Shown piece by piece: positions 13,373-23,825 of a stretch of 64,000 nt of DNA (position 1 is its first letter; each line of letters opens with the position of its first letter). Made by a program: the position numbers and the translations under genes. The notes below the pieces were generated by a model, which saw only the letters and a list, made by a program, of their open reading frames with translations, searched no databases and was not told the DNA's origin. Source of the stretch: Vibrio sp. NTOU-M3 (GTDB taxonomy: Bacteria; Pseudomonadota; Gammaproteobacteria; Enterobacterales; Vibrionaceae). The stretch lies in the NCBI RefSeq assembly GCF_040869035.1, contig NZ_CP162101.1:434001-498000 (forward strand), given 5' to 3'.

Positions 13373-14695
13373 TTACTTAGCCACATTACCTGCAACGTTC
13401 AATGCATCCCATGTTCTGGAGAAAGGAGGAGCATAACTAAAATCGAGATAGCCTAATTGTTGGGTCGTCATCTTCGCTGTGATGGCAACGGATAATGCAT
13501 TTAATCGACCAATCGCACCTTTCTTGCCTACAATTTCGCCGCCCAGCAAAACATTAGAAGTTGGGTCATAAAGCAATTTCACTTTGATGTCTTCTTGACC
13601 CGGATAATAATCAGTCTGATTTTTGTCTTTAATAAGTGACGTTTTGAACGGCACCTGATGTTGGCTTGCTAACCACTCGGTTACCCCAGTGCTAGCTAAC
13701 TCATAATCTAACACTTTTAAGGACGCCGAACCCAAGAAACCATTAAGTACCGAGTCTTTTCCCGCCAGCTTATCTGCCATCATCCGAGCTTGTTTATTCG
13801 CTGTCGTTGCGAGTGGTGAATAGACCGTATCACCCAGTGATAAATGGTGTGCAACCGCGCAATCACCAACCGCATAAATGCTCGGAGCTTGCGTCGCACC
13901 AAATTCATCAACAAGCAATGCGCCGTTAGCAGCTTTGGACAGATTAAACATCTCGGTATTGGGACGAAATCCGAGCGCTAATATCACGATATCTGCTTCA
14001 ATCTCTCCGTTATTGGTCGCTATAATGTAACCGCCTTGCTTACCATCACTAATCCCCTCTACTAAGGTATTGGTCATCAAGTTAGTGCCTGTCGCTGCAA
14101 TTGCTTGTTCGACCTCATTAATCATTTCTGGGCTAAACTGACGACTCATAATGTGCGGTTCACGTTCAATCAGCGTAATCTGTTTTCCTAAGTCATGAGC
14201 TGCATCAAACACTTCCAAACCAATAAAACCGGCCCCTATTATGGCTAGCCGAGATTTTCCACTGTCTTGCATCGCATTCTTTAGCGCAACACCATCCTCC
14301 ATGCTCGTAAGCGTATAGATGTTCTCCGTGTTATAGTCACCAAAATCAGGAACAATAGGCCGCGCACCGGTAGCGATAATGAGCGTGTCGTAATGTAACT
14401 GTTGTTCCTCATTTTCTCGCATTAATGTAATGGTTTTTTCAGTTTGGTTAAGCGCGACTACTGCGGTGTTAAGACGTATGTCTAGGCCAGACTGTTGAGC
14501 TTGTTCCGGGGTTCTAGAAATCATCCGATCCGTATCATCAAACTTACCTCCGATGAAATAAGGTAAGCCACAAGCCCCAAAAGAAATGTAACTTCGCTTT
14601 TCTATGACAACCACGTCATCAGTGGGTTTGTTTCTTTTATATTTGGCGGCAAAGCTCATACCTGCAGCGTTACCACCTATAATAACTACTTTCAT
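13373..14695 (-). CDS. cdr: CoA-disulfide reductase (FAD/NAD(P)H flavoprotein)
   Basis: 440 aa. The N-terminal FAD site is KVVIIGGNAAGMSFAAK (GxGxxG type, here GGNAAG). The single catalytic Cys is C42 in SFGACGLPYFIGG, the mark of CoA-disulfide reductases as opposed to the CXXXXC of glutathione reductase. A second Rossmann site IIGAGFIGLE lies near 150, FAD motif AVGDCA near 277, and the C-terminal dimerisation domain ends with SYAPPFSRTWDALNVAG. It reduces CoA disulfide or CoA-thiol mixed disulfides with NAD(P)H. The start at 14695 (ATG) is preferred to the GTG at 14701 for its ribosome-site spacing. It lies 59 nt after the cystine symporter, probably one transcript under the element at 16280-16310. 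Confidence 0.88.
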   Translation of the reverse strand: MKVVIIGGNAAGMSFAAKYKRNKPTDDVVVIEKRSYISFGACGLPYFIGGKFDDTDRMISRTPEQAQQSGLDIRLNTAVVALNQTEKTITLMRENEEQQLHYDTLIIATGARPIVPDFGDYNTENIYTLTSMEDGVALKNAMQDSGKSRLAIIGAGFIGLEVFDAAHDLGKQITLIEREPHIMSRQFSPEMINEVEQAIAATGTNLMTNTLVEGISDGKQGGYIIATNNGEIEADIVILALGFRPNTEMFNLSKAANGALLVDEFGATQAPSIYAVGDCAVAHHLSLGDTVYSPLATTANKQARMMADKLAGKDSVLNGFLGSASLKVLDYELASTGVTEWLASQHQVPFKTSLIKDKNQTDYYPGQEDIKVKLLYDPTSNVLLGGEIVGKKGAIGRLNALSVAITAKMTTQQLGYLDFSYAPPFSRTWDALNVAGNVAK

Positions 14696-14754
14696 TTTCA
14701 CTACCTAAGAGATAAAGAGCACTCACACAAGTGCTCATGTGCATAAACAGAATA

Positions 14755-16167
14755 TTAAACAGCGACCTTGCTGTTTTCAGTGGTTGCCACATGGCTATCC
14801 GCATTGTATTGCGTGATATCCAACGAGCCATTGCGTTTGGCGGTGATCACACCGGAGAGCATTGAACCTGAAATATTGAGAGCAGTACGAGCCATATCAA
14901 TCAAGGCTTCAATAGAAACCAAAATCGCAACCACCGTAATATCTAAGCCCATAATCGTCAGTACCGCGACGGCAGCAAACGTCGCGCCACCTCCAACACC
15001 AGCAATACCAAATGAGGCAATAGCAATGACGGCAATCAATTGGACGATAAAGCTTATATCAACTGGAATACCCATGACTTGTGCAGCCATAATGGCCAAC
15101 ATAGCTGGGTAAATACCTGCACAGCCGTTTTGGCCAATACTGGTGCCAAACGTTGCGGACATGTTTGCGGTTTCCTCGTCAACACCAAGGCGCTGAGTTT
15201 GAGTTTCTACATTGAGTGGGATCGCTGCCATGCTAGAGCGTGAACCAAAGCCAAACACAAGAACAGGCCATGATTTTTTAGCGAATGTCTTTGGTGACAA
15301 GCCAAACAGAGCAACCAGAATCAAGTGAATGATAAACATCACGCCAATGGCGACGTAGCTAGCAAGTAAGAAGCGCCCCATTTCTGCCAATGCAAACAGA
15401 TCATTGGTCATCATGAATTTGGTCATCAAAGCAAATACACCGTAAGGGGTTAGCTTAAGAATCTCACGCACCATCGACAACACCACTTCCTTAGCCGCGT
15501 TGATGAAATCGACAAAGCTTTGCACTTTCTCTGGCTTACGTTTTTTAACCTGAAGAATACTGTATCCCAAGAACATACCAAATAGCACAGTAGACAGTGT
15601 TGATGTTCGCTCTGACCCCGTCAGCATCTGGAATATATTTGTTGGAATGACGGATAACACAAGAGATGTGAGACCGTTGTTTGTCATTAACTCCTGAGTT
15701 GATAATAGTTTGTCACTTCGTGCTTCAATCGCACTGTTGGTGCCAACAACATGAACCAAACTCTTCGCATCAATATCAAATAGATAAATGCTGGCAATAC
15801 CAACGATGGCTGAGATAGCAACCGTTACAATCAGTACGCCAATGATTTTTGGTGCAATCTTAGACAATGCCCCATTCCCTTCCACGTTCATGATGGATGC
15901 GGTCATCGCAACAAACACCAACGGGATGACGATCATTTGTAGTAGCTTTATATAGCCATTACCAAAGATAGAAATAAGTTCAGCAAAGCGAATGCCCGCA
16001 TCGCTACCAGTGCCCAGTCCCAACTGAATCACGCCCCCAAATAGAAGGCCCGCAACTAGAGCGCTAAGAACTCGATAGTTAAAGCTTCTCTTCTGTGTTT
16101 TTAAACGAGCGAGAACAAAATAAAATCCAACAAATACTATGCTTAATACGACTAGTGTTAAACTCAT
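14755..16167 (-). CDS. tcyP: L-cystine symporter, TcyP/YdjN type
   Basis: 470 aa with about ten hydrophobic segments; a DAACS-family cation symporter (PF00375). It opens with SLTLVVLSIVFVGFYFVLAR, carries IKLLQMIVIPLVFVAMTASIMN near 75, GFGSRSSMAAIPLNVETQ near 305 (the hairpin 1 serine-rich motif), and GTSIGQNGCAGIYPAML near 345. Length and motifs fit the TcyP/YdjN cystine carriers rather than GltP glutamate carriers. It imports cystine across the inner membrane, giving cysteine for thiol synthesis. It is the first gene of a unit with CoA-disulfide reductase and is preceded by the same promoter-like element found upstream of the sigma factor and gshA genes. Confidence 0.85.
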   Translation of the reverse strand: MSLTLVVLSIVFVGFYFVLARLKTQKRSFNYRVLSALVAGLLFGGVIQLGLGTGSDAGIRFAELISIFGNGYIKLLQMIVIPLVFVAMTASIMNVEGNGALSKIAPKIIGVLIVTVAISAIVGIASIYLFDIDAKSLVHVVGTNSAIEARSDKLLSTQELMTNNGLTSLVLSVIPTNIFQMLTGSERTSTLSTVLFGMFLGYSILQVKKRKPEKVQSFVDFINAAKEVVLSMVREILKLTPYGVFALMTKFMMTNDLFALAEMGRFLLASYVAIGVMFIIHLILVALFGLSPKTFAKKSWPVLVFGFGSRSSMAAIPLNVETQTQRLGVDEETANMSATFGTSIGQNGCAGIYPAMLAIMAAQVMGIPVDISFIVQLIAVIAIASFGIAGVGGGATFAAVAVLTIMGLDITVVAILVSIEALIDMARTALNISGSMLSGVITAKRNGSLDITQYNADSHVATTENSKVAV

Positions 16168-16279: not shown

Positions 16280-16310
16280 AAGACGCGGGAGAGAGTTAAA
16301 AGACGCAAAA
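16280..16310 (-). promoter_or_regulatory. SigZ-type promoter element, copy 1 (cystine symporter)
   Basis: On the minus strand: TTTTGCGTCTTTT (16310-16298), 12 nt, CGTCTT (16285-16280). Read as a promoter it is TGCGTC, 16-nt spacer, CGTCTT; the CGTC in the -10 position is common for ECF sigma factors. The symporter start is 112 nt downstream. Confidence 0.7.
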
Positions 16311-16360: not shown

Positions 16361-16391
16361 TTTTGCGTCTTTTTCGAAATCTCATCGTCTT
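16361..16391 (+). promoter_or_regulatory. SigZ-type promoter element, copy 2 (sigma factor gene)
   Basis: TTTTGCGTCTTTT (16361-16373), 12 nt, CGTCTT (16386-16391), identical in block and spacing to copies 1 and 3. It ends 45 nt before the sigma factor ATG, which points to autoregulation. Confidence 0.72.
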
Positions 16392-16436: not shown

Positions 16437-16979
16437 ATGCTATCTGAATGGCAAAATCACAAAGCGCAACTTCGTAACTACATCATCAAACGTATCGATG
16501 ACACTGATGCGGTGGATGACATCCTTCAAGAGGTGTACATCAAAGCCAGTACGAACTTGCATCAGCTCAAGGCAAAGGGAAGCTTTAAAGGCTGGCTATA
16601 TCGCATTGCTCACAACACCATAATGGATTTCTATCGCGGTAGACCAGTTTATGAGGAGTTACCTGAGCATATCGCTGAAGAAGAACTAACGACCAGTGAT
16701 AGAGCCCATCATGAAATGGCGGAAGCACTGAGACCTTTAATTGAAGAGTTACCTGAAAAATATCGCGTACCATTACAAATGGCTGAGCTGGAAGGGTTAT
16801 CGCAGCAAGAGATTGCCGATAAGTTGGGTCTATCGTTATCTGGTGGCAAAAGCCGGATTCAACGTAGTCGCATCAAGCTTCGAGAGCAATTTATGGAATG
16901 CTGTGATATCGAGATAGGCAAAAGTGGTGTGATGGACTGTACACCCAAAGACCCAAGTTGCGATCCTTTTCACTATTAA
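16437..16979 (+). CDS. sigZ: ECF RNA polymerase sigma factor, SigZ family
   Basis: 180 aa, close to SigZ of Bacillus. Region 2 is at about 5-70 (DAVDDILQEVYIKA, then GSFKGWLYRIAHNTIMDFYR) and region 4 at about 95-150 (LPEKYRVPLQMAELEGLSQQEIADKLGLSLSG). The C-terminal 30 residues carry four Cys: C155 and C156, C168 and C175 (ECCDIEIG, MDCTPKDPSCDP). SigZ-type proteins often have such a tail and lack a neighbouring anti-sigma gene, as here. The tail could sense thiols or metals directly; this is inferred. The same promoter-like element lies before this gene, the cystine symporter and gshA, so these are its likely regulon. Confidence 0.85.
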   Translation: MLSEWQNHKAQLRNYIIKRIDDTDAVDDILQEVYIKASTNLHQLKAKGSFKGWLYRIAHNTIMDFYRGRPVYEELPEHIAEEELTTSDRAHHEMAEALRPLIEELPEKYRVPLQMAELEGLSQQEIADKLGLSLSGGKSRIQRSRIKLREQFMECCDIEIGKSGVMDCTPKDPSCDPFHY

Positions 16980-17001: not shown

Positions 17002-17034
17002 GCAGTTTGTGAAGTAGTGACAAACTGCTTTTTT
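17002..17034 (+). terminator. Intrinsic terminator of sigma factor gene
   Basis: Stem GCAGTTTGT (17002-17010) and ACAAACTGC (17020-17028), 9-nt loop, then TTTTTT. It separates the sigma factor unit from the gshA operon, which has its own promoter element. Confidence 0.85.
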
Positions 17035-17052
17035 ATTCCACTAATCATTATT

Positions 17053-17083
17053 TTTTGCGTCTTTTCCTTTATTTGTCCGTCTT
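17053..17083 (+). promoter_or_regulatory. SigZ-type promoter element, copy 3 (gshA operon)
   Basis: TTTTGCGTCTTTT (17053-17065), 12 nt, CGTCTT (17078-17083). It ends 33 nt before the gshA ATG. Same 13-nt block and same 20-nt period between the two CGTCTT cores as copies 1 and 2. Confidence 0.72.
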
Positions 17084-17116: not shown

Positions 17117-18715
17117 ATGAAAGGTATCGAAACCAAACCTTCTGAAATCAACCTGATTTCATTTCTTAATAATGAAGATGCCAAGGCCTCGTTAAAGGAT
17201 ATCCACCGTGGTATCGAAAGAGAGTTAGTCCGCACAACCTTACACGGTTCGCTTTCAGACCAACCTCATCCTAGCGCATTGGGCTCAGCGTTAACCCATC
17301 CGTACATCACAACGGACTTCGCCGAAGCTCAACTGGAATTAGTCACACCTGCGATGAACAACAGACAAGCAATGTTTAAAATGCTTGGCTCGTTACATCA
17401 CTTTGTCGCAGCTCAGATACAACCCAGTGAAACGTTATGGGGCTCAAGCATGCCTCCGGTCTTGCCAGATGAAGACGCGATTACTATCGCTAACTATGGC
17501 TCTTCCAATGCAGGTAAGCTGAAAATGCGCTATCGCCAAGGCTTGGCAAACCGCTACGGCAAACATATGCAGTTGATCTCTGGCATCCATTATAACTTTT
17601 CGCTACCGACATCGTTCTGGGAAGCCTTACACATCTACGCAAACAGCCCTCTGATGTTGAGTGATTTTATCTCTGAACGATATTTTCACCTGATTCGCAA
17701 TGTCCTCCGCTATGGATGGATAATTCCTTACTTATTTGGTGCTTCTCCAGCTGTAGATCGCAGCTACTTAGTGACTGATGAACATGACCTCAAAACTTTG
17801 GATGATGAAACCTACTACCTGCCTTGGGCGACTTCACTGCGCCTAAGCAATATGGGTTACAGCAGTACTGAACAATCGTTATTCCCGATGAGCTTTAACA
17901 GTAAGCAAGAGTATTTGACAGATTTGTGCCGGGCGTTGACGCAGCCAAGCGAACGCTACACTCACCTCAGCGCCGATAAGCAACTGAACACCTCTGTTTT
18001 ACAGCTAGAAAACGAGCTGTATGGTTCAATACGGCCAAAAATTGTAAGTTCAGAGTTAAGACCATTAATGGCAATGTGTCATAAAGGCGTGCAATACATT
18101 GAATTACGAAGCCTTGATAACAACCCCTATCTGCCTCTGGGGATCAGTGCAGAGCAAAGCCAATTTTTGGACCTATTTTTAACGTACAGCGCACTAGCAC
18201 CTAGTCCGGACATTACCGATGTGGAGCGTTCTTTAATCATTCGCAGACAAGAATTGGTGGCAACTCAAGGGCGTAAGCCAGGCTTAAAACTGCCGACGTT
18301 ACAAGGGGAATTTCCTTTAGTCGATCTCGGAGAAAAATTTCTGATGGCAATGCAGCCCATCGCCGATAGCTTTGATAGCGCGTTCTTAACCCACTCATAC
18401 ACGAAGAGCATCGCGCGAGAAAAAGCGAAGTTTGATAACAGCAATCTCACGCCATCAGCACAGGTACTGGCAGATATGAATAAAGAACAACTAAGCCACA
18501 CTAAGCTTGTGCAGCGACTCTCTATGCAACACGCGAAAGTACACCAGCAAAGCCACATCGCCTCAGAAGAAAAGGAAAAGTTAATTAAGCTGGCGGAAGA
18601 GTCTAGGCTTGCTCAAGAAAAAATGGAATCACAACAAGACGTTAGCTTTGAAGAGTTTATCCAAAAAAAGAGTCGTTTACAGTGTGACTGCGGCCCTCAA
18701 GAAGTAATGGTGTAA
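17117..18715 (+). CDS. gshA: Glutamate-cysteine ligase (GshA type)
   Basis: 532 aa. GIERELVRTTLHGSLSDQPHP near 33, HPYITTDFAEAQLELVTPA near 60, the YGKHMQLISGIHYNFSLP segment near 148 and YIELRSLDNNPYLPLGI near 325 are the hallmarks of gammaproteobacterial GshA. It joins glutamate and cysteine with ATP to form gamma-glutamylcysteine. The last residues contain a C-x-C pair (C523, C525). The gene starts an operon with an ABC exporter and a eukaryotic-type glutathione synthetase. Vibrios normally have a housekeeping gshA elsewhere, so this is probably a second copy; only the whole genome can tell. Confidence 0.88.
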   Translation: MKGIETKPSEINLISFLNNEDAKASLKDIHRGIERELVRTTLHGSLSDQPHPSALGSALTHPYITTDFAEAQLELVTPAMNNRQAMFKMLGSLHHFVAAQIQPSETLWGSSMPPVLPDEDAITIANYGSSNAGKLKMRYRQGLANRYGKHMQLISGIHYNFSLPTSFWEALHIYANSPLMLSDFISERYFHLIRNVLRYGWIIPYLFGASPAVDRSYLVTDEHDLKTLDDETYYLPWATSLRLSNMGYSSTEQSLFPMSFNSKQEYLTDLCRALTQPSERYTHLSADKQLNTSVLQLENELYGSIRPKIVSSELRPLMAMCHKGVQYIELRSLDNNPYLPLGISAEQSQFLDLFLTYSALAPSPDITDVERSLIIRRQELVATQGRKPGLKLPTLQGEFPLVDLGEKFLMAMQPIADSFDSAFLTHSYTKSIAREKAKFDNSNLTPSAQVLADMNKEQLSHTKLVQRLSMQHAKVHQQSHIASEEKEKLIKLAEESRLAQEKMESQQDVSFEEFIQKKSRLQCDCGPQEVMV

Positions 18716-18721
18716 TTACTA

Positions 18722-20530
18722 ATGAACATACTTTGGAAACTGCGCGGCTACATAAAAATGTTCGCTCGCCAGTACATTATTGCAATTGTAGTGTTGCAAG
18801 TCGTAGCCTTGTTAAACCTCGCTCCCTCATGGCTAATTGGTCGAATTGTTGACAACATCAGCTCAGGAGAACTGACATTACGGTTTTTGCTCACACATCT
18901 GGCGGGAATTATATTTGCTGCCATAGCGATGTATGGCTTGCGCTATGTTTGGCAAAGTCAGCTTTATGGTGCATCGATTGCAATTACTCAGGTATTGCGT
19001 CGAGAGCTTTTTCACAAGTTTTCTGTGCTTTCACCTACGTTCTATTCCCGTCGCAGTAAAGGCGATCTGATGGCCCACGCGACCAATGATATCAATGCGG
19101 TAGAAGAAGCAACCGGTATGGGCATTATGACATTGGTGGACTCTATGATTGCGGGCCTTACGGTAATTATCGGCATGATTTTCGTCGTGAGTGGTGAACT
19201 GACGGCCGTCGCTCTGTTACCGTTCCCGCTGTTGGTGTACATCACCCACAGATATGGCACTAACCTGCACAAAACGTTTGGCCGTGCTCAGGCAACGTTT
19301 TCGCATTTAAATGAAGAAACTCGCGAAACTGTTTCAGGTATTCGCGCTGTTCGTTCCCATGGTATCAGCCAGCGCCAGGAACAACGTTTTGGTGCTGCAT
19401 TGGATGATACGTTGAAAGCAAACTTGTCAGTGGCAAAGGTAGATGCGGCATTTGCCCCAACTATACAGATGTTCTACGGCCTTTCGTTTGTGATTTCGTT
19501 AACTTATGGCGCGTGGTTGATCAACCAAGGCAGTATTACTGTGGGGCTATTTACCACCTTCACTCTTTATCTTGGTCAACTGTTGGGCCCATTCCTGCAA
19601 TTTGGCTGGCAGTTTAATGTATTTCAACGCGGTAGCACCTCATGGCAACGATTGGAAAATCTATTCAATGAGCAGCAAGAAGTGGTGGAAGGAAGCAACA
19701 CATTGCCGCTAGAAGCCAAAGCGAGCATGGAAATCAACATTAAATCGTTCACTTACCAAGGTTCAAGCCGCCGAGCCTTAGAAGAGATCAAACTTGACGT
19801 CCCTGCCGGTGGACTAATCGGCATAACAGGACCGACAGGCAGTGGGAAAAGTACCTTGTTGCAATTGGTGTTACGACAATTTCAATTGGACAAGCAATCA
19901 AGTATCACCATTGATGGTTATTCGATTGACAGCCTAACCTTTGACTCGATGCGCAGCAAAATGGCATGGGTTCCACAAAAGCCTTTTTTGTTCTCTGGCA
20001 CCATCGCTGAAAATATCGCATTAGGCAAGACGGATTCCTCTGAGGACGAGATTATCCATGCCGCGGAGATGGCAGGCATCAAGCAAGAAATCGAAGCAAT
20101 GCCTGAAGGTTTTGATACTGAACTGAGAGAAGGGGGATCCAATCTGTCAGGGGGGCAGAAGCAACGTATTACTTTGGCAAGAGCACTATTGTCTGATGCT
20201 GACATCTTGTTATTAGATGACCCATTTAGCGCGTTAGATATGAAAACAGAGGTGGCTGTGCGACAGAATCTTAAGCAACATTATGGGCACAAAACCATAT
20301 TGTTGATTACCCAACGGCTGCCCAACCTAATTGAAGCGGATCATATTCTGGTGTTGAACGAAGGTCAGATTGAAGAACAAGGCTCACATCTTGATCTGGT
20401 TGCGAATCAAGGTTGGTATGCGCTGGTTTATCAGCGTCAAAGTCAATTGGGTAAATCTGTCAAAGATATCTCACAGCCATCTAGACTCGGTTCAGATGAA
20501 GGTCAACAAGTAGGAGAAGTTTATGCCTAA
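18722..20530 (+). CDS. ABC exporter half-transporter A (MdlA-like, degenerate site)
   Basis: 602 aa: six membrane helices in about 1-310, then an ATPase domain. Walker A GPTGSGKST is near 369, signature LSGGQKQR near 474, Walker B LLLDDPFSALD near 496. The residue after the Walker B Asp is Asp, not Glu, and the H-loop His is replaced (ITQRL near 528), so this half holds the inactive-type site. It overlaps the next half-transporter by 8 nt. Such asymmetric pairs (MdlAB, TM287/288 type) form one heterodimeric exporter. Lying between gshA and glutathione synthetase, its cargo is probably gamma-glutamylcysteine, glutathione or a conjugate, comparable in idea to CydDC; this is inferred. Confidence 0.85.
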   Translation: MNILWKLRGYIKMFARQYIIAIVVLQVVALLNLAPSWLIGRIVDNISSGELTLRFLLTHLAGIIFAAIAMYGLRYVWQSQLYGASIAITQVLRRELFHKFSVLSPTFYSRRSKGDLMAHATNDINAVEEATGMGIMTLVDSMIAGLTVIIGMIFVVSGELTAVALLPFPLLVYITHRYGTNLHKTFGRAQATFSHLNEETRETVSGIRAVRSHGISQRQEQRFGAALDDTLKANLSVAKVDAAFAPTIQMFYGLSFVISLTYGAWLINQGSITVGLFTTFTLYLGQLLGPFLQFGWQFNVFQRGSTSWQRLENLFNEQQEVVEGSNTLPLEAKASMEINIKSFTYQGSSRRALEEIKLDVPAGGLIGITGPTGSGKSTLLQLVLRQFQLDKQSSITIDGYSIDSLTFDSMRSKMAWVPQKPFLFSGTIAENIALGKTDSSEDEIIHAAEMAGIKQEIEAMPEGFDTELREGGSNLSGGQKQRITLARALLSDADILLLDDPFSALDMKTEVAVRQNLKQHYGHKTILLITQRLPNLIEADHILVLNEGQIEEQGSHLDLVANQGWYALVYQRQSQLGKSVKDISQPSRLGSDEGQQVGEVYA

Positions 20531-22340
20531 CAAACAGACAACCAAAGTCGAGGGCACCCGTTTGTTTCGGCGCTTACTGACTTATTCTTTACCACATAAA
20601 ATGCGTTTTATAGCCGCGTTTATCATGCTTGCTATAGCGATCACTGCTGAAATGGCCATTCCGTGGTTGGCGAAGATCATACTTGATGATGTGATTGTGC
20701 CAAAACAGTTTGAATGGCAGCACTTAGCATGGCTAACCGGTTTGATCATCATTTTCTATGCGATATCAGGATTGTTTACGTATTTACAGGCTGTGGCGTT
20801 TCGTCATAGCGCTTTACTGATGGTCAACGATGTACGGAAAGAGCTGTTTAGTCATGTACTTAACTTCCCTATCAGTACCTTTGACAAACTCGCTGCGGGT
20901 AAGTTGGTCTCGTACATTACCAATGATACTGAAGCACTACGTAACATGTTTGTATCGACCATCCCCACTATCATTCAGGGCAGTTTTCGTATAGGGGCAA
21001 TTTTCATTGCTATCGCGATACTGGACTGGCGCTTAATGTTACTGAGTATGGTGTTGATCCCAATCCTATTACTGACAATGCACCTGTATAGAAAGATTTC
21101 GATGCCTGTATTTGACGGTATTCGAGTGCAAATCAGTAACATCAACGGCCAGATCAATGAGTCTTTGCAGGGCATGGCACTGATTCAGGCATTTCGTCAG
21201 GAAAAAGCCTTCACAAAGAAATTTGAGCAGGAAAACAAACACTGGTTTGATTTTCGACAAAGAGCAATCGCCATAGATAGCCTGATGTTGATTCCATTAA
21301 CGCGTTTAGTGTCTACGATTACCGCTGCAGGCATAGTCGCATGGTTTGCAGGAGCATCACTTACTACTGTCGTTGAAGTCGGCACCCTATATGCTTTTTT
21401 AAACTATATCGAACGCTTCTTCGATCCGTTCCGCCAACTCTCTATGGAACTGAACAAATTGCAAGTTGCAACCGTATCATCGAAACGCATTTTTGAGCTC
21501 TTGGATAGTAAGTCTGAACGACAGTACCAGCTGACAGAGTTTGTCCCTCTACCTGCTCAGCATGATATTGAGTTTCGTAACGTCGACTTCAGTTACGAAG
21601 AAGGAACGCCAGTCCTTTCTGACGTGAGCTTTACTGCGAAAGGCGGAGAATTTACCGCAATTGTTGGTCATACCGGTAGTGGAAAAAGCTCTGTAATCAA
21701 CTTACTCATGCGCTTTTATCAACATCAGCAAGGTGAAATTTTAATTGGCGGAAAACCATTAGGCTCCTTTCCAGAGGTTCAGCTTCGTGAAATGTTTGGT
21801 TTAGTCTCACAAGACCCAACGATTTTTAGTGGTTCAGTTCTGGATAATATCGATCTATCACATAAATCACCCGACAAAAACAGAGCCATACATGCGGCCA
21901 AATTGGTGAAAGCGCACAAGTTCATTCAACGTTTAACTGATGGCTACAACTATCATACGGGGCATGGTGGATCATCGCTTTCTGTCGGCGAAAAACAACA
22001 ACTGGCGTTGGCGAGAGCAATATCTCACAACCCAAAAATCTTCTTACTGGATGAAGCCACTGCTAACATTGACAGTGAAACGGAAGAAGCAGTGAAAAAA
22101 GCATTAGAAAATATTAAGGATGGCAAAACCGTCATTACAGTTGCTCACCGTTTATCCACTATTCAAAACGCTGATCGAATACTGGTAATGAACCAAGGAA
22201 AAGTAGTTCAAAGCGGCACTCATGATGAGTTGATAGCCCAACATGGCGATTACCGAGACCTTTACCTAGCCCAAAAGGCTCAAGAAGAACACGAACATCA
22301 GAACAACACTCTCGGCTTAACAGAAGCAACCGTTGCCTGA
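20523..22340 (+). CDS. ABC exporter half-transporter B (MdlB-like, active site)
   Basis: 605 aa with the same layout as its partner: membrane domain about 1-320, then ATPase. Walker A GHTGSGKSS near 381, Walker B FLLDEATANID near 507 with the catalytic Glu, and H-loop VAHRL near 540 are canonical. Its signature is altered (LSVGEKQQ near 486, for LSGGQ). That altered signature would pair with partner A's degenerate Walker B, leaving one working ATP site made of B's Walker motifs and A's canonical signature. It starts 8 nt inside gene A, so the two are translationally coupled. The operon continues to the synthetase 12 nt after its stop. Confidence 0.85.
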   Translation: MPNKQTTKVEGTRLFRRLLTYSLPHKMRFIAAFIMLAIAITAEMAIPWLAKIILDDVIVPKQFEWQHLAWLTGLIIIFYAISGLFTYLQAVAFRHSALLMVNDVRKELFSHVLNFPISTFDKLAAGKLVSYITNDTEALRNMFVSTIPTIIQGSFRIGAIFIAIAILDWRLMLLSMVLIPILLLTMHLYRKISMPVFDGIRVQISNINGQINESLQGMALIQAFRQEKAFTKKFEQENKHWFDFRQRAIAIDSLMLIPLTRLVSTITAAGIVAWFAGASLTTVVEVGTLYAFLNYIERFFDPFRQLSMELNKLQVATVSSKRIFELLDSKSERQYQLTEFVPLPAQHDIEFRNVDFSYEEGTPVLSDVSFTAKGGEFTAIVGHTGSGKSSVINLLMRFYQHQQGEILIGGKPLGSFPEVQLREMFGLVSQDPTIFSGSVLDNIDLSHKSPDKNRAIHAAKLVKAHKFIQRLTDGYNYHTGHGGSSLSVGEKQQLALARAISHNPKIFLLDEATANIDSETEEAVKKALENIKDGKTVITVAHRLSTIQNADRILVMNQGKVVQSGTHDELIAQHGDYRDLYLAQKAQEEHEHQNNTLGLTEATVA

Positions 22341-22352
22341 GTCATCGAATTT

Positions 22353-23825
22353 ATGAGAAATACACTAATGAAAACAGAAAAACGCCCTTTTGTATCTCAA
22401 CAGATCATTGAAGACGCCTGTGAATGGGCAATTATGCATGGTGTGGCATTTAGGCAATCTGATAATACAGCGAGACACTGTCCATTTAGCATTGCACCAA
22501 TGACTATGGAGCGCAGTGTGTATCGGCACTTATTGAAAGTGACCCCATTAATCACCAAGCTCATCAACAACGTCTCGGAAGACCATGATTTTCTGCAAAC
22601 TACATTGAGAGATATGGCTAAGGCTGACCCATTTTTTGGTCGATTAATGGCTCTGCATCAAGCCGCGCACGGTGATATCAATGATAGACGTCTTGCCGCT
22701 CGCCAGCCGTTGCTCTTAATGCGCACTGATTTCATGGATGATCGACGCCACGGCGCAAAAGTCATTGAGTTCAATGGTATCGCTGCTGGCATGTCACCGT
22801 TTGGGCAGCGTGCAACTGAACTTCATAGTTTTCTACAAAACCAATGGCCAAATACTTACCGTGACTGGTTAGTAGATAACTCGGCGAAACCTGCCGATAA
22901 CGTTGGCATGGAGCAGCTTGCTTACGGCATTGCAACAGCAGCACGAAAGATTCAATCAGACTTCAACGGCCAAGGAAAACCAACTTTTCTAATGGTGATT
23001 CAAAAGAACGAAGACAATGTCTATGATCAACACCTACTAGAAGTCGAATTGCAAAAACTAGGCCTGCAAACAGTAAGGCGTACCTTTGAGCAACTAAGCA
23101 CCCAACTTTCCACAGGAGAAAACCAGCGTTTGATGTTAGAAGGCGTTGGGGGTATTGACGTTGTGTATCTCCGTGCGGGCTACCAATATATCGACTACTT
23201 CGCACCAGAACTGAAAGAGTCGATCTGCTGCCACACATTAAGCCAAACACGTCTCTTCATTGAGCAACACCACGTGGCGCTGAACGCAACCATCAGCCAG
23301 CAGCTTGCGACAAGTAAATCGATGCAGATGCTACTAACAATTATGCCTGCAGAAGAATACACGCGTTGGGGGCTCAATCTTTCAGAAGCTCAATTAGTGA
23401 AAAGCGTCCTAGCGGATATGAAACCCGTTAGTCAGAGCGCCATTGAATGGTTTAACACAACGGCAAACAAGCAAGAGTGGGTACTTAAAAATCAAGGCGA
23501 AGGTGGCGGGCATTGTATCTTTGGTGAAGATATTAGCGACAAACTCAGTCAACTGGCGAAAGAAGAGTACGATGCTTGGGCGTTGATGCAGCGCTTGTAC
23601 CCACACGAACGAGAGAAACCAACTATTGCAGTTCGTGATGGCAAACAAACGTTAGTGGAGGATCTAGTCAGTGAAATTGGTCTATTCACCGTTTACTTCA
23701 ATGGTGAGCCCGTCACCCAATATGATGGTTATGCGGGATACTTAATCCGCAGTAAACCTGCTAGTGAAAATGAAGGTGGTATCCATAGTGGGAAAGGGAT
23801 TTTAGATTCATTGATGTTAGTGTAA
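22353..23825 (+). CDS. Eukaryotic-type glutathione synthetase, ATP-grasp
   Basis: 490 aa, not related to bacterial GshB but to the eukaryotic GSS family (about 470-480 aa). Matches include VIEFNGIAAGMSPFGQRATELH (the EINTI...GL motif), DVVYLRAGYQYIDY, the Gly-rich ATP loop WVLKNQGEGGGHCIFGEDI, and the C-terminal GIHSGKGILDSLMLV. It would ligate gamma-glutamylcysteine with glycine, or another amino acid, using ATP. Its place in one operon with gshA makes the pathway complete. The acceptor amino acid cannot be read from the sequence, so a glutathione analogue is possible. An alternative start lies at 22368. A eukaryote-like synthetase in Vibrio suggests old lateral transfer. Confidence 0.8.
   Translation: MRNTLMKTEKRPFVSQQIIEDACEWAIMHGVAFRQSDNTARHCPFSIAPMTMERSVYRHLLKVTPLITKLINNVSEDHDFLQTTLRDMAKADPFFGRLMALHQAAHGDINDRRLAARQPLLLMRTDFMDDRRHGAKVIEFNGIAAGMSPFGQRATELHSFLQNQWPNTYRDWLVDNSAKPADNVGMEQLAYGIATAARKIQSDFNGQGKPTFLMVIQKNEDNVYDQHLLEVELQKLGLQTVRRTFEQLSTQLSTGENQRLMLEGVGGIDVVYLRAGYQYIDYFAPELKESICCHTLSQTRLFIEQHHVALNATISQQLATSKSMQMLLTIMPAEEYTRWGLNLSEAQLVKSVLADMKPVSQSAIEWFNTTANKQEWVLKNQGEGGGHCIFGEDISDKLSQLAKEEYDAWALMQRLYPHEREKPTIAVRDGKQTLVEDLVSEIGLFTVYFNGEPVTQYDGYAGYLIRSKPASENEGGIHSGKGILDSLMLV

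Follow-up and report, generated by a model that had tools for sequence, protein, structure and literature searches.

A SigZ-linked operon of Vibrio sp. NTOU-M3 that combines a second glutamate-cysteine ligase and an ABC exporter pair with a eukaryotic-type glutathione synthetase

Introduction

The described systems closest to the locus reported here are the housekeeping GshA-GshB pathway, the eukaryotic glutathione synthetases (GSS) with homoglutathione synthetase, the paired ATP-binding cassette (ABC) transporters SmdAB/MdlAB and CydDC, and the ars operons for organoarsenicals (ArsR, ArsP, ArsH). Our locus lies in a 64,000-nucleotide stretch of Vibrio sp. NTOU-M3 (assembly GCF_040869035.1, contig NZ_CP162101.1, positions 434,001 to 498,000), called the window below, and comprises an operon encoding a second glutamate-cysteine ligase (GshA2), two ABC half-exporters (AbcA and AbcB) and a GSS-type ligase, preceded by a gene for the sigma factor SigZ. 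We read it as a SigZ-controlled thiol regulon in which thiol-reactive, probably arsenical-type stress would lead to synthesis and export of a gamma-Glu-Cys-X thiol, and we put the probability of this reading at about 0.55.

GshA2 shares the family of the housekeeping GshA (TIGR01434); whereas the housekeeping genes are separate, the locus has a different second enzyme, a different promoter and a linked exporter. The window GSS is like eukaryotic GSS and homoglutathione synthetase in fold, in its ATP and Mg residues and in its glutamyl pocket, but differs from eukaryotic GSS at Ser149 and Ser151, in the glycine-rich ATP loop (G-loop) and the acceptor loop (A-loop), by a Cys-Cys insertion, in its TIGR01986 score, and in sitting in what appears to be a SigZ-type regulon. 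SmdAB/MdlAB, the nearest curated family for the exporter, likewise pairs two half-exporters, one of whose ATP sites is degenerate, yet the window pair scores under both cut-offs and in our family survey was seen only beside GSS. CydDC is a thiol exporter, and the window pair may share with it the idea of a heterodimeric ABC transporter that exports thiols, though it scores under the CydD/CydC cut-offs. The MRP/Ycf1-type pumps carry glutathione conjugates in eukaryotes and serve as a model of how a thiol and an ABC exporter could work together, with no homology claimed. Relatives of the window GSS stand in or beside ars operons, whereas at the window SigZ and the ABC pair occupy the places of ArsR and ArsP, neither of which was found in the 28 kb covered around the operon. 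The component families are all known; in literature in which subscription journals are sparse we recognised no description of a second GshA combined with a eukaryotic-type GSS, an exporter and SigZ-type promoters, nor of GSS in ArsR/ArsP operons, and these two would be the new part.

Results

A second thiol pathway with a linked exporter

Four long open reading frames (ORFs) lie head to tail at 17117-23825 of the window in the order gshA2, abcA, abcB and GSS; the first two are 6 bp apart, abcA and abcB overlap by 8 bp, and GSS follows 12 bp after abcB. GshA2 scored 503 bits with TIGR01434 (cut-off 393.3), and 14 active-site positions of E. coli GshA were kept in 20-23 of 23 GshA2 sequences. 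AbcA and AbcB each matched PF00664 and PF00005; they were nearest to the SmdA/SmdB models NF008055/NF008056 but below the equivalog cut-offs (567 vs 845 and 487 vs 746 bits), they missed the CydD/CydC cut-offs of TIGR02857/TIGR02868 (264-288 vs 435 and 215-239 vs 329 bits), and the exporter is ~40% identical to E. coli MdlA. The Walker B of AbcA has DD and its H-loop reads TQR (DDPFSA in 32 of 33 sequences; TQRLP, by pattern, in 14/33), while AbcB has an intact Walker B (DE) and H-loop and the signature LSVGE (by pattern, DEATA in 25/33, AHRLS in 32/33 and LSVGE in 27/33). Judged by these motifs, the pair is predicted to be a heterodimer in which one ATP site is degenerate.

The source genome consists of two contigs (4.86 Mb in total), and has a stronger gshA (556 bits) on the other contig (C1), which also carries an ordinary gshB (PF02955, 275 bits; PF02951 also matched). 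The locus is therefore a second pathway. A sequence-only reading of this DNA, made before any database search, had proposed one operon of gshA, two ABC half-exporters and a GSS-type ATP-grasp enzyme, forming a complete second pathway, and had said that it would be the ordinary pathway in an unusual place if the genome had no other gshA and gshB. ORF spacing and profile matches agree with that gene content, and both other genes exist; "complete" describes this locus, but gshA2 is optional across GSS genomes. Among 296 genomes of the family, gshA was matched in all, with at least two matches in each of the 29 gshA2 genomes, and gshB in 295. The sole miss (G086) was considered as a natural replacement of gshB by GSS and rejected: the whole 6 kb around gshB is without match there, which makes an assembly gap likely, and two sister genomes do match.

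An enzyme of the eukaryotic GSS family

The window GSS passed both PF03917 (208 bits, cut-off 25) and PF03199 (69 bits, cut-off 20.9), had no Pfam match to the bacterial GshB families (PF02951/PF02955), and scored 243 bits against the glutathione synthase equivalog TIGR01986, under its cut-off of 329.8. The nearest solved structures were the GSS of potato, yeast, soybean and human, and a structure model (predicted TM score 0.83, mean predicted local distance difference test, pLDDT, 77) matched the plant, yeast and human GSS fold in Foldseek (E 2e-30 to 3kal, 1.2e-28 to 2hgs), with pLDDT <50 at residues 278-288, 384-386 and 472-484; these belong to the substrate, ATP and acceptor loops, and the model is too uncertain there for a judgement of the acceptor site. 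That the enzyme belongs to the eukaryotic GSS family and not to GshB, as had been proposed from the letters alone, is borne out by these Pfam, solved-structure and fold matches.

A GSS tree of 125 tips, four of them eukaryotic, was rooted on the eukaryotic tips, and below we set the deepest bacterial branch (seven sequences) apart from the other 114 bacterial GSS. Residues were mapped on human numbering with contacts as given in excerpts of PMC2845819 and PMC5919673. Human R125 and the glutamyl pocket (Q211, E214, N216, Q220, R267 and Y270) are identical in 114/114 non-deep sequences, except for one gap at R125, and R450 and the ATP/Mg residues are conserved, no position deviating in more than one sequence. 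In the excerpted account of Lilley et al. (PMC5919673), nematode effectors without glutathione synthesis have an altered glutamyl pocket and retain the cysteine side. The pocket here, unlike theirs, is intact, making gamma-Glu-Cys the likely donor substrate, and the residue pattern makes ligase chemistry a well-supported prediction.

The loops are another matter. Relative to the compared synthetases, S149 is changed to Ala and S151 to Gly, and the G-loop reads GEGGGHC in place of REGGGNN. At the A-loop pair, where human (A462-A463), potato and yeast have the Ala-Ala typical of most glutathione synthetases and soybean homoglutathione synthetase has Leu-Pro, the window GSS has His-Ser; the His is present in 121/121 bacterial GSS and the Ser in 113/114 non-deep ones. 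The substrate loop, which covers bound glutathione in GSS according to the excerpts of PMC2845819, carries a Cys-Cys insertion in 110/114 non-deep sequences and in none of the seven deep or four eukaryotic ones. In the G-loop, C388 is Cys in 113/114 non-deep and 0/7 deep sequences, and Asn in all four eukaryotic ones. A metalloid site made up of these three added cysteines, all on mobile loops, would be speculation, as the model has low confidence directly ahead of the CC pair, in the G-loop and in the A-loop.

SigZ and its candidate promoters

SigZ exceeded the cut-offs of NF007215 (220.6 bits, cut-off 212) and TIGR02959 (202.1, cut-off 168.65), and its tail has a CC pair in 38/38 sequences and an additional Cys in 38/38. 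By comparing upstream regions we found a two-part element whose halves are always 12 bases apart. The 4.86 Mb genome contains exactly three copies of the perfect form, TTTGCRTCTTTT-N12-CGTCT, and each of them is at this locus (Table 1); four more genome matches have two mismatches, as against two for a reversed control pattern. After sigZ, a hairpin (GCAGTTTGT...ACAAACTGC-T6) has a loop of 9, which is beyond the limits of the terminator scan and so was not listed by it.

We defined the SigZ-linked clade as the 84 loci with a GSS at least 59% identical to that of the window, and looked for a relaxed motif, CGTCTTTT-N12-CGTCT, allowing up to one mismatch. The stretch covered ran from 400 bp ahead of the leading gene of the GSS operon, or of sigZ, to 60 bp inside it. 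Such a site was present at 60/84 clade loci and in one of 1000 control segments, whereas the 37 remaining GSS loci had none. By target, sites in clade loci also lie before sigZ (21), a pyridoxal phosphate (PLP) enzyme of class I/II (11; PF00155), which we take by likeness to be a C-S lyase, and the symporter (4), as well as before a rhodanese gene (L036) and, with two mismatches, an ArsP_1 permease gene (L057); in V. splendidus-, V. harveyi- and Photobacterium-type loci the site precedes GSS where no sigZ is adjacent. These positions give good support to the prediction that the operon forms one branch of a small SigZ-type regulon. The sequence-only reading had the operon coordinates, and the ligases and exporter beside a normal pathway, right; it omitted sigZ, the divergent gene pair and the three promoter sites, and so the regulator and the regulon, and it also lacked the arsenic link and the changed loops and added cysteines of GSS.

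The rhodanese-domain gene of L036 (4925-5332) lies, with its SigZ-type site, between the reductase gene and sigZ. At seven Enterovibrio loci (L063, L065, L067, L069, L070, L074 and L078) a SigZ-like gene stands downstream of GSS and not upstream; it is divergent, with 31-34% identity to the window SigZ.

Distribution of the module

GSS was matched in 117/296 family genomes (short remnants among them); 42 have an exporter orthologue of at least 60% identity, and at least 29 have a gshA2 orthologue of at least 55%, of which partial copies may be missed. A genome of Aliivibrio fischeri has this operon too (L022). These sets are nested, all gshA2 genomes falling within the exporter genomes and all of those within the GSS genomes, and in 42/42 genomes the exporter starts no more than ~4.2 kb from GSS (positions compared by eye), which together argue that the grouping is not due to chance. 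GSS is the constant part of the module, and the exporter and gshA2 are variable: a full gshA2 is lacking in 10 of 34 named or fetched exporter loci, two (L024 and L069) having a partial one. Since many GSS genomes lack gshA2, those presumably draw on housekeeping gamma-Glu-Cys. In a phylum survey PF03917 was found in 10/398 genomes, all within the same order, and a protein search of the order found GSS in 50/394 genomes. The named GSS relatives are the best 80 of 110 matches, and among these, relatives elsewhere include Marinobacter and Endozoicomonas; the nearest among the matches listed is that of V. algarum (86%).

Short GSS remnants in G094, G136, G123, G087, G225 and G263 suggest repeated gene loss. 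The V. splendidus-type loci, next to LysR and adenosine deaminase genes, gave no functional lead from their neighbours. An apparent GSS fusion in G996 was rejected, as it is merely an open frame upstream.

Arsenic genes near GSS relatives

We surveyed the neighbourhoods of the 80 named loci and of 46 fetched ones (31 being all order hits outside the family, and 15 lower-identity family copies), and, as controls, 40 windows taken in 14 of these genomes. Outside the SigZ-linked clade, ArsR or ArsP was present at 17/32 survey loci (15 of them within 3 kb), compared with 2/40 control windows, both with ArsR; ArsP was present at 11/32 and in none of the 40 controls. On the deepest bacterial GSS branch, ArsR lies within 2.2 kb in 7/7 loci and ArsP accompanies it in six. 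At L158, GSS is inside an ArsR-ArsP-GSS-ArsB-ArsC run, and at L165 a split GSS ends the series ArsR-ArsD-ArsA-SBF-ArsC-GSS, in which the SBF-family transporter is presumably of Acr3 type. A bridge locus, L066, has ArsP divergent from ArsR-sigZ-GSS-PLP enzyme. On the L140 plasmid, a frame-broken GSS ends a large ars island that also encodes, between arsH and arsD (L140:2012-2557), a SigZ-like sigma factor with a Cys-containing tail (30% identity, E 1e-24), which suggests that arsenic-linked SigZ relatives exist.

At L173, L176 and L181, GSS adjoins a gene or stretch that resembles a sigma factor and is closer to the plasmid ars-island type, and a close ArsP_1-like gene (28-31% identity) falls under our counting threshold.

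Discussion

A mechanism that would join these observations begins with thiol-reactive stress freeing or activating SigZ, whose tail has a vicinal Cys pair and a further Cys. SigZ would then transcribe sigZ itself, the symporter/reductase pair and gshA2-abcA-abcB-GSS, each with its observed site. GshA2, judged by family and residues, would make gamma-Glu-Cys, to which GSS would add an acceptor amino acid, glycine or other, giving a candidate glutathione-like thiol on top of the housekeeping pool. The ABC heterodimer, as an operon member, would export this thiol or its complex with a thiophile, and the symporter and reductase might recover oxidised thiol or cystine. By analogy, the stress is most likely to come from trivalent arsenicals or from some comparable thiophilic metalloid; we favour this because relatives outside the clade often have ArsR/ArsP close by or belong to complete ars operons. 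Excerpts of PMC6205960 present ArsP as a permease that exports trivalent organoarsenicals. In the window lineage, ArsR appears to have been exchanged for SigZ and ArsP for the ABC pair, with the ligase retained. A fuller version, that this is thiol-conjugate efflux with its own thiol supply, in which a SigZ CC...C sensor and a three-Cys ligase provide a non-glutathione gamma-Glu-Cys-X that leaves complexed with arsenicals or similar thiophiles, the whole being descended from ArsR-ArsP-GSS operons, is tentative and, taken as a whole, unlikely.

Several observations weigh against the SigZ-controlled, arsenical-type regulon. The arsenic link is an analogy from relatives of GSS and not from the window locus: the 28 kb around the window operon held no ars gene of the query set, ArsR and ArsP included (the rest of the genome was not searched), and an ars gene is nearby in only 2 of 84 SigZ-clade loci (L066 and L075). 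Among the relatives themselves, 15 of 32 outside-clade loci show no ArsR/ArsP, and just one of five named loci of intermediate identity (L079, L081, L083-L085) has ArsP. The Fisher p of 5e-6 for 17/32 vs 2/40 is overstated because the loci are related, the ArsP counts take in genes that match Pfam ArsP_1 or are like it and may include other permeases, and the inner supports of the GSS tree are partly <0.7. As to regulation, we infer the action of SigZ at the motif from its position, and 24/84 clade loci are without a site at that stringency, some of them from a broken gene or a misplaced start. The substrate, ATP and acceptor loops are the low-confidence parts of the GSS model. Lastly, symporter and reductase are jointly near GSS in only five clade loci, so recovery is not a core part.

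The constituent parts could be read in other ways. GSS might use a non-glycine acceptor, with the exported thiol doing redox work or signalling outside the cytoplasm and arsenic being only an ancestral use; this would fit the scarcity of ars genes near SigZ-clade members, the linked exporter, the change from Ala-Ala to His-Ser in 113/114 A-loops, the changed G-loop, and the normal gshB kept in 295/296 genomes, next to which a second maker of glutathione would be redundant. The altered A-loop was at one point taken as proof of such an acceptor, which we dropped in view of published counter-examples. In the excerpts of Fyfe et al. (PMC2845819), the A-loop holds glycine by main-chain groups, and His and Ser are listed among the natural eukaryotic GSS variants at the two positions, so those residues do not reveal the acceptor; likewise, in those of PMC5919673, loop changes need not alter the acceptor, and a nematode GSS whose loop residues are altered keeps its preference for glycine. 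We hold a non-glycine thiol with a role of this kind to be doubtful. A SigZ-run booster of plain, stress-inducible glutathione with a multidrug-type exporter seems comparably improbable to us. The catalytic residues of GshA2 and GSS are kept, and the exporter is nearest, among curated models, to the SmdAB multidrug family and E. coli MdlA, but its orthologue was seen only beside GSS (42/42 family genomes) and is under the SmdA/SmdB cut-offs, and the GSS loops and cysteines are unlike those of all four glutathione/homoglutathione synthetases compared.

A 2012 title by Nemeti et al. reportedly places glutathione synthetase in arsenolytic arsenate reduction, and GSS stands near arsC in L158 and L165, raising the idea that GSS runs in reverse, in the arsenolytic direction, to aid arsenate reduction. 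We think this very improbable, since the ars neighbours are mostly ArsR and ArsP, the substrates described for ArsP are trivalent organoarsenicals and not arsenate, and the window GSS accompanies gshA2 and an exporter, which fits synthesis.

If the SigZ-controlled thiol regulon is correct, bacteria would have a further enzyme route to glutathione-type thiols, SigZ could be assigned a regulon, a promoter and a likely signal, and the genes of arsenic operons would come to include a thiol ligase. With the promoter motif defined, the regulon can be tested directly across many marine bacteria. The presence of the GSS family on several hundred enterobacterial plasmid records indicates mobility of the activity and makes it relevant to metal co-selection.

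Neighbouring genes and plasmid copies

Table 1. Features of the SigZ-linked locus, in window positions
Feature	Position	Strand	Evidence or remark
CoA-disulfide-reductase-like flavoprotein	13373..14701	-	second in the divergent SigZ-type unit
SDF-family symporter	14755..16167	-	PF00375
Predicted SigZ-type promoter site before the symporter/reductase unit	16281..16309	-	perfect motif match
Predicted SigZ-type promoter site before sigZ (autoregulation)	16362..16390	+	perfect motif match
sigZ, extracytoplasmic function (ECF) sigma factor with C-terminal CC...C tail	16437..16979	+	NF007215, TIGR02959
Terminator-like hairpin between sigZ and gshA2	17002..17034	+	read from sequence
Predicted SigZ-type promoter site before gshA2-abcA-abcB-GSS	17054..17082	+	perfect motif match, conserved in upstream alignment
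gshA2, second glutamate-cysteine ligase	17117..18715	+	TIGR01434
abcA, half-exporter with degenerate ATPase motifs	18722..20530	+	PF00664 + PF00005
abcB, partner half-exporter	20523..22340	+	PF00664 + PF00005
GSS, eukaryotic-type gamma-Glu-Cys:X ATP-grasp ligase (predicted)	22353..23825	+	PF03917/PF03199
GSS C292-C293, vicinal Cys pair in substrate-loop insertion	23226..23231	+	alignment
GSS C388 in glycine-rich (ATP) loop	23514..23516	+	alignment
GSS H478-S479 in acceptor (A-) loop	23784..23789	+	alignment

Of the divergent unit, the reductase scored 622 bits with NF007123 (cut-off 458) and 418 with TIGR03385, under the cut-off of 578.8, and its nearest solved relatives were NADH oxidase NoxA-3 and CoA-persulfide reductase; a reductase-like gene is near GSS in five other named loci (L016, L036, L037, L047 and L062). 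The symporter scored 299 bits with PF00375, matched the NCBIfam models GltP/DctA/SstT weakly and was nearest, among solved structures, to archaeal Glu/Asp symporters; it may resemble the cystine importer TcyP.

GSS of the same type occurs on plasmids (L117, L118, L120 and L139-L141) at ~49% identity, the loop signatures being alike in the two copies compared. Matches were found in 352 plasmid records, mostly of Escherichia (208) and Salmonella (102), and IS26 was present in five of the seven plasmid stretches viewed around GSS. Where a product label is given it is mostly glutathione synthase, and on one 3.3 kb IncN plasmid GSS is the only gene listed.

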